A stretch of 51,155 bases of DNA from an uncultured Bacteroidales bacterium (GTDB taxonomy: Bacteria; Bacteroidota; Bacteroidia; Bacteroidales; Paludibacteraceae): NCBI GenBank assembly GCA_902798385.1, contig CADBWK010000014.1, positions 1 to 51,155 of the forward strand, given 5' to 3'. The notes below the pieces were generated by a model, which was not told the origin of the DNA, made no database searches, and was given only the letters and a program-made list of their open reading frames with translations. Below are positions 8,934-46,075 of the stretch, piece by piece. How positions within the stretch are numbered: the stretch's first letter is position 1; each line of letters begins with the position of its first letter. Position numbers and translations under genes: made by a program.

Positions 8934-8961
8934 GTGTAAAGTGTAAGGTGTAAAGTGTAAA
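8934..8961 (+). repeat. Heptamer tandem array, unit GTGTAAA x4
   Basis: Four exact-length 7-bp units (GTGTAAA, GTGTAAG, GTGTAAA, GTGTAAA) begin on the base after the pfkA stop codon and end 11 bp before the efflux adaptor start. Rotated, the unit is AAAGTGT. It contains stop codons. Confidence 0.9.
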
Positions 8962-8972
8962 AAAAATCAGAT

Positions 8973-10058
8973 ATGAAAAAAGATCTTCTTTTTGTAGCAG
9001 TTGCCGTGATCTTGACGGCATGCGGTGGGCAGGCTCCTCAGGTAGTTCCCACTTCGTATGAGACAATGACCATTAGCAAGAGCGACATCTCCGTGCCGCT
9101 GAAGTTCAGTGCGACCCTCAAAGGAACCGCAGACGTGACGATCACGCCGCAGATCAGCGGTCAGTTGATGGAGGTGTGCATCACCGAAGGTCAGCAGGTG
9201 AAGAAAGGTCAAGTGCTGTTCCGTATCGACAGCCGCGACAAACAACTCGAGCTCGAGTCGGCTGAGGCTAACTTGTTGGCTGCTGAGGCACAAGAGAGTA
9301 GTGCGAAACTGGAGTTTGAGAGTAACATGAACCTCTATGCCAAGAAGATCGTGAGCAAGTTCGTGCTGGATAACTCCGAGAACCAGTACAAACAGGCGCA
9401 AGCGTCCGTAGCCCAATATAAGGCTGCAGCGAACCGTGCGCGCGTGAACCTCGGCTATTGTACCATCACCGCGCCGGTAGATGGTGTGATCGGTTCTGTT
9501 CCTGTCTATGCAGGCGACCAAGTCAGCCCTTCTACCTTCCTGACCTTGCTCAGCGGTAATGCGAAGATGTATGCCGAGTTCTCGGTGAGCGAATCGATCC
9601 TGGCAGAGCGTACGGAAGAAGAAGCCAGAAACCCGGAGAAGATGTTAGCGAGTCTCCCGGATGTATCGTTCCAATTCAAGAAAGGCGATGTGTATAGCAA
9701 ACCGGGTCGTATCACGAGTATCACCGGTACGGTAGATCGTACGACCGGTGCGCTGACCTGCAAGGCTACTTTCCCGAACCCCAACGGCATTCTCTATTCG
9801 GGTGTGCAGGGAACGGTGGTGCTGCCGATTGACGTGAAAGACGTGATGGTGGTTCCGCAGAACGCTATCGTGCGTTTGCAAAACAAATCCTTGGCATATA
9901 AAGTAGGTCCGGACAGCTGCGTGACCAGCGTGATTGTAGAGACCGCAGGGATCAGTTCAGATCGCGACTTAGTGGTGACCAAAGGTCTCGAAGTAGGCGA
10001 TGTGATCGTGACTGTTGGCGCGAATAACCTGGTAGAAAATCAGCGGGTGATTTTCTGA
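8973..10058 (+). CDS. RND efflux periplasmic adaptor (membrane fusion lipoprotein)
   Basis: Periplasmic adaptor of the AcrA/MexA type that bridges the inner-membrane pump and the outer-membrane channel. The 361-residue product begins with a lipoprotein signal peptide ending in LTAC, so Cys17 should be lipidated. A biotinyl-lipoyl-like half (GQLMEVCITEGQQVKKGQ, then later ITAPVDGVIGS) flanks a helical hairpin at about residues 85-150, followed by beta-barrel and membrane-proximal domains. It is the first gene of a three-gene efflux operon. The 5' neighbour pfkA is separated by a 7-bp repeat array and a second array separates it from the pump gene. No regulator gene is adjacent, so substrate and control are unknown. 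Confidence 0.93.
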   Translation: MKKDLLFVAVAVILTACGGQAPQVVPTSYETMTISKSDISVPLKFSATLKGTADVTITPQISGQLMEVCITEGQQVKKGQVLFRIDSRDKQLELESAEANLLAAEAQESSAKLEFESNMNLYAKKIVSKFVLDNSENQYKQAQASVAQYKAAANRARVNLGYCTITAPVDGVIGSVPVYAGDQVSPSTFLTLLSGNAKMYAEFSVSESILAERTEEEARNPEKMLASLPDVSFQFKKGDVYSKPGRITSITGTVDRTTGALTCKATFPNPNGILYSGVQGTVVLPIDVKDVMVVPQNAIVRLQNKSLAYKVGPDSCVTSVIVETAGISSDRDLVVTKGLEVGDVIVTVGANNLVENQRVIF

Positions 10059-10091
10059 TTTTAGATTTTAGATTTTTGATTTAAGATTTAA
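10057..10091 (+). repeat. Heptamer tandem array, unit GATTTTA x5
   Basis: Five 7-bp units (GATTTTA twice, GATTTTT, GATTTAA twice) start inside the TGA stop codon of the adaptor gene and end 6 bp before the ATG of the pump gene. The sequence differs from the array at 8934 but the period is the same. Confidence 0.88.
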
Positions 10092-43485: not shown

Positions 43486-43496
43486 TTCTTCACTTA

Positions 43497-44042
43497 TTAA
43501 TCGTTAGACTTAATCGTTGTTAAGTATCCCATAATTTGATTGAATAGCCACGACGATTCAATAGCTGCCTCTTCCCCTTGTTCCGGCGTGAAGTCGGGTA
43601 GGGAGATGAGCATGTCGTGTACTCCTTCGCCCAAGTTCATACCCACTTTAAAGTCCGCATCTGTGTACATCGCAATATAGCGAAGCGGTAATAAAGGTCG
43701 TGTCGTAAGGTCAATCAGCAGATCATAATGCTCTGTTGCCAAGTCCGTCAGGACGTTCTCTCGCGGCTTGCCAAACAGATTGTAGTCGTTCAAACCCAAG
43801 ATACGGCTCTGCGGCAGAATCAAGGTAGTGATTTCCTTTTTCTCTACAAATCCCCACATCGTCACGTCCATCTGTCGGCGCAACAACTCCTGACGGATAG
43901 ACTTAATACTGTCATTTCGCTCCAGCACGTCACTCTCATAGATGATCATGACTTTGAGCGGTTGGTCTAAATGCGGGAAGCGCGGATTGCGCTCTGCCTG
44001 CTTACCGAGCAAATAATCAAATATACGTTGTTTTAAACTCAT
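43497..44042 (-). CDS. DUF6913 family protein
   Basis: A 181-residue cytoplasmic protein of the Bacteroidota-specific DUF6913 type, recognised by [36 protein letters not shown] and [17 protein letters not shown]. It is commonly found between ligA and dapA in this phylum. Its start overlaps the ligA stop by 4 bp and it precedes dapA by 11 bp. Function unknown. Confidence 0.8.
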
Positions 44043-46075
44043 AGCATTTCTAAAAAATCATCTTCCGATATCATCTTTATTCCCAAATCTTCCGCTTTCT
44101 TCCGTTTCTCGGGACCCATATTCTCTCCGGCGAGGATAAAACTCGTCTTCTTGCTGACGGAACCTACGTTCTTACCGCCGTTGGCTTCAATCATCGCCTT
44201 GTACTCATCGCGGCTGTGATGGCTGAAAGTACCGGAAATAACGATACTTAATCCCGCCAACTTATCACTTGTCGGTTCGGGAGCTGCTTCGCCTTCCATC
44301 TGCAGACCTGCCCTGCGCAAACGGTCTAAGATCTCCAGATTGCGGATGTCCTCGAAATACTTGACGATATTCTCCGCAATCTGCGGTCCTACGTCCTCAA
44401 TAGCGCAGAGTTGCTCTGCCGCTGCCCATTGGAGGCTGTCTATCGTGTTGTATTTGCGGGCAATCTTCTTGGCTGTTGTTTCACCTACCATGCGGATGCC
44501 TAAGGCAAACAGCACTCTTGCCCAAGGAACGTTCTTCGAGGCCTCTATGCCGTCCAAGATATTCTGCGCACTCTTCTCTCCTAACCGCTCTTGCGCCGCG
44601 ATATCCTCTAACTTCAGATCGTAGATGTCGGCGATGTTATGCAATAATCCTTTCTGGTAGAACAAATCAATCGTCTCTTCTCCCAGACCCTCTATGTCCA
44701 TCGCTTTTCGGCTCACGAAATGCTCAATCTTACCTTTGATCTGCGGGGGACAACCGCTTTCATTCGGGCACCGCCAAGCCGCTTCACCTTCTACGCGCAC
44801 TAACTCCGCGCCGCATTCCGGGCAATGAGTGATAAATTGGTAATCCGTGTCCTGTACCCCGTTGCCCGTATCCTCTTTCCCTGTGATCTTCGGAATGATT
44901 TCACCGCCTTTCTCCACCCACACGCGGTCTCCCGGACGGATATCAAGCGACTTGATGAAATCTTCGTTATGTAAGGTCGCGCGTTGAACCATCGTTCCAC
45001 TCAACTGAACCGGCTCGAGATTTGCTACCGGCGTCACCACACCCGTTCTACCTACCTGATACGTGATCTCTTTCAAAAGTGTCAATTGCTTCTCTGCGGG
45101 GAACTTATAGGCGATTGCCCAACGAGGAGTCTTGGCTGTATAACCGAGTTCTTCTTGTTGCGCTAAGTTGTTCACTTTCAGCACGATACCGTCTGTCGCA
45201 ACGGGTAGGTTCTTGCGTTCTGTATCCCAATAAGCAATATACGCCATCACTTCATCCACATTCTTGCATACCTTGATGGCTTCGCTGATATGAAATCCCC
45301 ATCGGCGTGCGGTGTCAAGTCGCTCGAAATGTGTACTGCCGGGCAGGTTTTCGCCTAACATATAGTACAGATACGCCTCCAGTCCGCGCCGTGCTACTTC
45401 TCGCGGATCTTGCAGTTTCAACGTTCCAGAAGCGGCATTTCTTGGATTCGCAAATAGTGGTTCTTCCTGCTCCTCGCGTTCTTTATTCAACGCTTCAAAT
45501 CGTTCCCATGGGAGCAGCACTTCCCCTCGGAGTTCAAAGAAGTCCGGGATATCGTTTCGCTCAATCTTCCATGGGATCGAAGGAATGGTCTTGATGTTCG
45601 CGATCACATCGTCTCCCTGCTGTCCGTCGCCCCGTGTGAGCGCTCTGACGAGTACTCCGTGCTCATACCACAGACTGATACTCAAACCGTCGTATTTCAG
45701 TTCGCACACGATCTCCACGCCCGAAGGCAATTTGCGCAACCACTCTTCAATCTCTTCGCGCGAATAACTGTTCGCCAAGGATAACATCGGGTACTTGTGC
45801 TTGACTTGCTCAAAGCCCTTACCTGTAACCCGTAACCCGTAACCTGTAACCGCTAAATCGCTACCCACATGTTGCGTCGGGCTTTTAGGATCGAACATAT
45901 CGGGGAACTGCGCCTCAAGAGCTTGCAATCGATGCATCTTCTCATCGAACTCACGGTCGGATAGAGTAGGCATATTCAGTACATAGTACTTATAGTTCGC
46001 CTCCTCTAACTCCTTACGCAACGCACGTAGTTCCTCGCGTTCCGGCTCTTCTATTTCCGAAAACAGATCCAGCAT
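44039..46075 (-). CDS. ligA: NAD-dependent DNA ligase LigA
   Basis: Seals nicks using NAD. The 678-residue protein starts at ATG 46075 (MLDLF); its A overlaps the stop of the upstream nuclease gene. The adenylated lysine is Lys127 in ELKYDG. Domains follow the usual order: Ia, nucleotidyltransferase, OB fold, a four-Cys zinc finger (CPECGAEL to CPNESGC), helix-hairpin-helix repeats, and a C-terminal BRCT domain. Residues 74-87 ([14 protein letters not shown]) are an insertion between domain Ia and the adenylation domain, encoded by a 7-bp tandem array. Confidence 0.97.
45822..45856 (-). repeat. Heptamer tandem array inside ligA, sense unit TTACGGG
   Basis: Five 7-bp units on the coding strand (TTAGCGG, TTACAGG, TTACGGG, TTACGGG, TTACAGG) are translated as [12 protein letters not shown]. 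The unit is stop-free in all sense frames, while its complement contains TAA. Confidence 0.9.

Follow-up and report, generated by a model that had tools for sequence, protein, structure and literature searches.

The stretch of DNA analysed here, called the window, comprises 51,155 nucleotides of contig CADBWK010000014.1 from an uncultured Bacteroidales bacterium of the Paludibacteraceae and carries five short tandem arrays with a period of 7 bp. These arrays had been pointed out in an original prediction, and Tandem Repeats Finder (TRF) recovered all five at, or within a few bases of, the places where it had put them. Two lie in gaps of an operon-like run of genes. The GTGTAAA array (8933..8961, forward strand; 4.1 copies, 90% matches) follows the PFK gene (7926-8933) in the 39-nt gap before the membrane-fusion-protein gene (8973-10058). 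The GATTTTA array (10057..10098, forward strand; 6.0 copies, 85% matches) is located between the latter gene and the RND pump gene (10098-13292) and overlaps the upstream stop codon. The other three arrays are on the reverse strand and lie inside genes whose products were identified by Pfam. The AAAGTAC array (24501..24536) lies in the reverse-strand gene of the carbon starvation protein CstA (24306..25817; PF02554, E 1.9e-55), where it encodes the peptide DKVQSTKY; it is perfect at 24501-24523 (3.3 copies, 100% matches) and degenerate from there on. The TGGAAAG array (37434..37468; 4.3 copies and 82% matches at 37434-37463) is found in an MFS transporter gene (36810..38069, reverse strand; PF07690, E 5.5e-20). 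The GGTTACG array (45821..45856; 4.4 copies and 91% matches at 45821-45851) is an in-frame insertion in the gene of the NAD-dependent DNA ligase LigA (44039..46078, reverse strand; PF01653 and others). It encodes 11 residues after TQHVGSDL, a position referred to as LigA site 1. At LigA site 2 of the same gene, a degenerate GGTTACG-like stretch (44843..44875, reverse strand, coordinates derived from residue numbers) also encodes 11 residues. Under a stricter array score four of the five arrays pass and the one at 37434 fails.

The frequency of such arrays was surveyed in 451,155 bases of the source genome (1,920,810 bases in 44 contigs, 73.95% complete), made up of the window and 20 stretches of 20 kb. 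We counted 69 period-7 arrays, compared with 0.33 per shuffle when dinucleotides were shuffled in blocks of 1000 bases (three shuffles per threshold). In the same bases, periods 6, 8, 9, 11 and 14 gave 3, 11, 5, 9 and 20 arrays, respectively. The phenomenon is thus genome-wide, as had been proposed, and period 7 stands well above periods 6, 8 and 9; equal frequencies, which would have spoken against the prediction, were not observed. The 69 arrays fall into 47 unit classes, and exact units were shared between 31 pairs of loci, compared with 4.85 pairs (maximum 12) after permutation of the units. Sixteen further genomes of the genus gave 32 period-7 arrays in 400 kb, together with 20 of period 11, which form a second excess. 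Twelve genomes from other families of the order gave 4 period-7 arrays in 399 kb, all within one genome. Eight more distant genomes of the phylum, which were selected for holding AAAGTNN triplets, gave 14 in 400 kb, three of them in stop-free stretches of more than 600 nt. The period-7 excess is therefore strong in this genome yet not unique to it, and such an excess is already known from the literature.

The original prediction had seen a common AAAGTNN logic in the arrays. In the source genome the triple AAAGTNN pattern gave 24 overlapping matches, compared with 8 for the reversed pattern; this search, like those for specific elements below, counts places, and one long array can count repeatedly. 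As a general rule the AAAGTNN form was not confirmed, given the 47 unit classes and the presence of AAAGT in only 1 of 33 intragenic units. A heptamer structure with a 4-nt core and three contiguous variable positions was not supported (495.06 compared with 494.90, sd 0.62, p 0.38; 87 imperfect arrays). The prediction had also known no named counterpart in Bacteroidales. The arrays are not without one, since across the phylum 105 of 395 genomes contain AAAGTNN triplets and TAACTGA heptamer repeats have been described in five Bacteroidetes (PMC4679880).

Placement relative to genes was taken from a simple gene caller that missed some genes, such as the MFS gene, and assigned 33 of the 69 arrays to gene interiors, 17 to gene edges and 19 to intergenic regions. 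A stop-free stretch of more than 600 nt holds 44 of the 69. Of the 33 intragenic units, 27 are free of stops when read on the sense strand and 9 when read on the antisense strand. The earlier claim that intragenic units carry no stop is thus mostly correct, with six exceptions. The sense readings encode more hydrophilic peptides than the antisense readings (hydropathy -0.63 and 0.28, respectively, p 0.001). In a pooled set of 69 arrays within open reading frames of genus loci, the 59 inner arrays have a mean purine fraction of 0.60 and a mean hydropathy of -0.89. For the 10 arrays within the first 30 residues of a protein, the purine fraction is 0.35 and the hydropathy exceeds 0.7 in six. No correlation was observed between the encoded hydropathy of these 69 arrays and their flanks (rho 0.10, p 0.42). 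It seems likely that the sense-strand AAAGT noted in the window reflects such protein fit, and no special AAAGT logic would be needed.

Comparison with related genomes showed that the arrays are often lineage-specific. The source genome is close to metagenome-assembled genomes titled Paludibacteraceae or uncultured Bacteroidales, many of whose titles name ruminant gut sites; the best 80 of 367 LigA relatives reach 94% identity. One public record titled Ruminococcaceae (L238) has a LigA 89% identical to the Bacteroidales protein, and its title is probably wrong. Array codons coincide with a gap in the ortholog in 35.7% of 112 pairs, whereas this is so for 0.75% of 2257 control segments. The comparison covered 24 intragenic arrays for which other genomes have orthologs, a set that includes single sites counted in several species, and 14 of them are missing from at least one ortholog. 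The GTGTAAA array is missing from the orthologous gap of the sister genome G003, and the GATTTTA array is missing in G003 and G002, while several other genomes carry different units there. At two loci (L048 and L051) the gap before the RND pump gene holds period-8 runs of near-palindromic units (GTCATGAC, GTTATAAC; CTCGAGGT; by eye) in place of heptamers. The CstA array is present in G021 and absent from the 93% identical protein of G004; in L134 the CstA site is filled by an 11-bp array. At the MFS site the length is kept in four relatives with differing heptamers, and G006, G015 and G030 carry other AAAG-type heptamers.

The most detailed view was obtained at LigA site 1. The window protein was matched by phmmer to the DNA ligase chain 2owo_A (E 1e-161), which we take to be the E. 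coli enzyme, and this chain has a 10-residue gap opposite the array. In 48 of 101 distinct rows TQHVGSDL is followed by a short stretch (GKKG and similar); 42 rows were assigned to one of seven heptamer families, 4 to a palindrome-like insert and 7 to other long inserts. Insert types were assigned by word rules, with identical rows dropped, and on a quick FastTree tree with many weak branches they require at least 41 changes (shuffled mean 51, least possible 9). The nine GGTTACG rows alone require nine changes. All nine have one length, as do all six GGACAAA rows. At LigA site 2 a clearer array than that of the window is seen in G006 (score 11). A similar picture was found in PheT, where 11 of 30 aligned rows have 18 residues at a site that spans 29 residues when it holds the 33-bp element described below. 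That element is present in two of the 30 rows, and four further rows carry four other heptamer arrays. The CstA and LigA arrays of the window are lineage-specific in-frame insertions, and sister species carry nothing, other heptamers or palindromes at the same positions.

The palindrome-like inserts at these heptamer sites (CCCCACCC...GGGGAGG kind, by eye) are inserted in frame at LigA site 2 (L183, L186), at LigA site 1 (L247, L269, L279, L299) and in CstA (L120). Their core CCTCCCCNNNAGGGGAGG was found in 16 of 61 genus genomes and its control in none, symmetrical matches being counted on both strands. Other repeats were observed as well. The window contains an intergenic 11-bp array, ACGTATGTATT, at 36030-36091 (5.6 copies, 90%), an 8-bp array, ATCATTAA, at 48860-48897 (4.6 copies) downstream of the open reading frame 48086-48799, and a repeat with a 27-bp period at 31462-31530 (2.6 copies) within an open reading frame. 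The eight distant genomes of the period survey also gave 36 period-9 arrays, 33 of them in a single 20-kb stretch (L312, G294) that perhaps encodes one long repeat protein.

An irregular LigA insert of G015 served as seed for a search of 101 genus genomes with a 21-nt core, allowing up to 2 mismatches. The core belongs to a 33-bp element with the consensus ATGTACAAAGGGACAATGTACAATGTACAAAGG, in which the word ACAA recurs at spacings of 7, 8, 7 and 7; the element is therefore not a plain heptamer run. It was found in 56 of 101 genomes, the number of places per genome ranging from 0 to 70 (G099 70, G087 54, G121 34, G015 32, source genome 1), and the reversed control gave 0. The CstA array of the window is a relative, with at most 3 mismatches to the core and the same reading frame. 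The edges were examined in two sets, one of 24 copies lying in 20 stretches of G087 that were picked among its best-matching places, the other of 20 copies from one genome each. The left 11 nt, which lie outside the search pattern, match the consensus at on average 9.7 (G087 set) and 9.1 (one per genome) of 11 positions, compared with 3.0 (maximum 11) for flank stretches. In both sets the information drops to background beyond 33 bp, and the edges are thus sharp. Inspection of the consensus showed that its ends are direct and not inverted repeats. It contains no stop in any of the six frames, as is the case for 0.4% of permutations, and its length is a multiple of three. In 23 of 37 copies in open contexts the same frame is read, giving a VQRDNVQCTK-like peptide; the count derives from 44 rows, with one copy twice (L352, L367) and 7 of 44 without an open stretch of more than 300 nt, and from pieces of 421 bases, in which the strand of the longest open frame may be the incorrect one. 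Two copies at signal-peptide-like sequences (L351, L355) are read in reverse.

A second family, GTCGAAA-GTCAAAA-GTCGAAA, was found in 53 of 101 genomes with at most 1 mismatch (controls 0 to 3), at up to 84 places in one genome (G087) and at 2 places in the source genome. For its reading frame we took 30 loci, one per genome at the best match, of which 4 were dropped when no copy lay within 30 nt of the expected place. In 24 of the remaining 26 the copy lies in an open frame of more than 600 nt, and 18 of these 24 share one sense frame (VESQKSK-like). The left edge of this family is sharp and the right edge soft. GGTTACG runs, the type found in the window's LigA, occur in 19 of 101 genomes (control 0). 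Of 20 copies from two genomes 18 lie in open stretches of more than 280 nt, and 12 of the 18 share a frame; stops in the reverse complement of such runs dictate the sense strand, and what this set shows is the open placement of 18 of the 20. The hosts named by Pfam are unrelated to one another and include topoisomerase, OPT and TonB-dependent transporters, peptide synthetase, GldB, RimP, TRCF, UDP-GlcNAc epimerase, a DALR (ArgS-like) protein, helicase, iPGM, PheT and AlaS; for 7 of 30 proteins no Pfam model scored above the thresholds applied.

A fixed, irregular 33-bp sequence with two sharp edges is thus dispersed in the genus, together with a second family with one sharp edge. Copies show preferred frames and lineage-specific presence, and the same protein site is reused by different families. 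The likeness to STRR that had been suggested is not supported: unit families are numerous, roughly half of the arrays lie within genes, and the best-examined family is a dispersed element of fixed irregular order. STRR, the short tandemly repeated heptamers of Cyanobacteria, belong among the heptameric repeats.

We consider it probable that a good part of the arrays belong to families of dispersed repeats, very short at about 25-40 bp, that have been copied as blocks and filtered by reading frame, stop codons and protein fit. The repeats consist of 4-5 imperfect heptads, and their source arrays may arise by slippage. The whole repeat would then be copied as a block to new places, and selection would retain those copies that keep the frame intact, introduce no stop and suit the protein. 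Inside proteins such copies would be hydrophilic, and near the N-terminus often hydrophobic, with the T-rich strand as sense. As a result, repeats would accumulate in intergenic regions and, where conserved proteins tolerate them, as additional loops. LigA alleles may in addition move between species by recombination. We infer that the copies are neutral or selfish and that the remaining families behave like those examined. Templated insertion, one of the mechanisms named in the original prediction, stands as a live possibility. A more specific version, which we put forward tentatively and hold to be somewhat doubtful as a whole, is that peptide-coding mobile micro-elements (about 30-33 bp, built of heptads, one family being stop-free in six frames and a multiple of three in length) have spread through conserved genes across the genus and replace each other at the same protein sites.

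The main rival is local replication slippage or polymerase stutter with a preference for 7 nt, in which the shared words would reflect sequence preference and the in-frame arrays would be the survivors of selection. We regard it as unlikely for the arrays overall, but it has to be taken seriously, above all for the uniform ones. Heptamers have been reported as the most abundant class of long repeats in most genomes, and polymerase slippage was proposed as their source (Mrazek 2007, as cited in PMC4679880 and PMC4692102). Many arrays are near-uniform (GGACAAA x5, AATCGAA x4), as expected from slippage. Uniform arrays are common in the source genome, and the search for the second family also accepted runs of GTCGAAA alone: G115, G029 and G110 together have 84 places, 28 with the exact irregular order and 31 uniform. 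Between G018 and G034 the length of one intergenic array changes by a single 7-nt unit (by eye). Heptamer words are common to distant Bacteroidota, as the spread of AAAGTNN triplets through the phylum illustrates, and the reversed pattern, itself heptameric, is also frequent in some genomes. Unit sharing between genomes (0.0086) reaches two thirds of that within genomes (0.0132), which fits a sequence preference too.

Apart from the general abundance of heptamers, these points also weigh against block copying, and so do several others. Two sharp edges have been demonstrated for one family only, and the ends of GGTTACG copies are ragged. The other families at LigA site 1 vary in length (60 to 87 nt for AAAGGCG), albeit always by multiples of three. 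The 33-bp family brings a net gain of about 24 nt at LigA, and local replacement must therefore also have taken place. Seven of the 20 one-per-genome copies of the element (L338, L340, L342, L343, L344, L347, L352) precede a similar C-terminal stretch (NGQLYI..G-like), which looks like type 9 secretion domains, and these seven may have been copied along with the domain. Neither target-site duplications nor inverted ends were seen, and no clean empty site was measured at the nucleotide level.

On the other hand, slippage does not readily account for a sharp-edged irregular 33-bp sequence in unrelated genes. A local seed was not found either: the unit is not enriched in the flanks of 101 arrays (5.9% compared with 3.8%, maximum 9.9%), and the longest match in the empty allele is 4.29 compared with 4.07 (p 0.25, 14 cases). 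One of the 14, G004, shares 10 nt with its nearest ortholog, which may hold a remnant. Inside LigA a stepwise 7-nt route is hard to envisage, because every single step would put the gene out of frame and two families each show one constant length. Loss of mismatch repair, judged on MutS1, was considered and rejected. The window itself contains a MutS1 match at 18691-21273 that spans the full model without internal stops, and MutS1 scores above the cut-off in 57 of 61 genomes.

Further explanations fare much worse than slippage. The intergenic arrays could have a regulatory role, as binding sites or in the control of translation, which has been proposed for the TAACTGA repeats of Beggiatoaceae; the intragenic arrays would then be spill-over. 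Although 17 of the 69 arrays lie at gene edges and many touch stop or start codons, the dozens of different units, the intragenic placement of about half of the arrays and the other units or empty gaps around the pump gene in sister genomes make this very improbable. Recombination of short homologous segments between species, acting on a few old insertions per gene, would explain the scatter of similar LigA inserts over the tree, such as the nine changes for nine GGTTACG rows; it leaves the tens of places of one element per genome unexplained and is most unlikely as the sole cause, though it may act additionally. Phase variation, in which unit gain or loss would switch genes by the frame shift that a 7-nt change causes, is equally improbable, since the hosts include LigA, PheT and AlaS and the LigA inserts are all in frame, with constant lengths within two families.

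If block copying is the right reading, the repeats would rank with the smallest dispersed elements that are known to insert into essential genes. They would also provide a natural experiment on loop acceptance, in which the LigA or PheT site of close relatives is empty or filled with one of several peptides. Furthermore, some of the heptamer excess in bacteria, which is so far unexplained, would be given an origin that can be tested.

Our literature search, which covered few subscription papers, did not turn up any description of in-frame heptamer elements from Bacteroidales; this is weak evidence of absence. Several known systems share single features with the elements described here. Palindromic amphipathic repeat coding elements (PARCEL) are likewise described as dispersed peptide-coding repeats, but their tandem motif has 25 residues, shows dyad symmetry and occurs in proteins to which no function has been assigned (PMC2996958). 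Small non-autonomous repeats similar to miniature inverted-repeat transposable elements (MITEs), such as ERIC and Correia, have open frames and are fused in frame to genes; they measure about 100-155 bp and carry terminal inverted repeats (PMC2229807), whereas we saw none here and the 33-bp element ends in direct repeats.

Heptameric long simple sequence repeats are known as GGGAATC in Xanthomonas and GGGGAYT in Nostoc, where they exceed other periods and their origin is unexplained (PMC4692102, PMC4679880), and as TAACTGA in Beggiatoaceae and some Cyanobacteria besides the Bacteroidetes mentioned above (PMC4679880). The excess of period 7 over neighbouring periods is the same here. As far as they are described, these systems use one or a few units and are mainly intergenic, with a range of heptamers mentioned for Microcystis (PMC4692102, PMC4679880). 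In contrast, the 451 kb surveyed here hold 47 unit classes, and roughly half of the arrays lie within genes, where they are mostly free of stops in sense orientation. Rickettsia palindromic elements form several families with many copies per genome, which are inserted in frame in conserved genes with a conserved peptide per family; they are 105-146 or about 150 bp long, with terminal inverted repeats and stem-loops (PMC10969869, PMC2229807). Both element families of the present genus resemble them in being dispersed in unrelated genes, and the lineage-specific presence of arrays opposite empty orthologs is shared as well. In-frame insertion with a preferred frame and a conserved peptide is a further likeness (23 of 37 copies for the 33-bp element, 18 of 24 for the second family and 12 of 18 for GGTTACG). 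Unlike them, the element found here has 33 bp and direct heptad repeats without inverted ends. We do not claim membership, since size and ends differ. Rickettsia palindromic elements are the nearest known system in behaviour, and the heptamer repeats are the nearest in structure.

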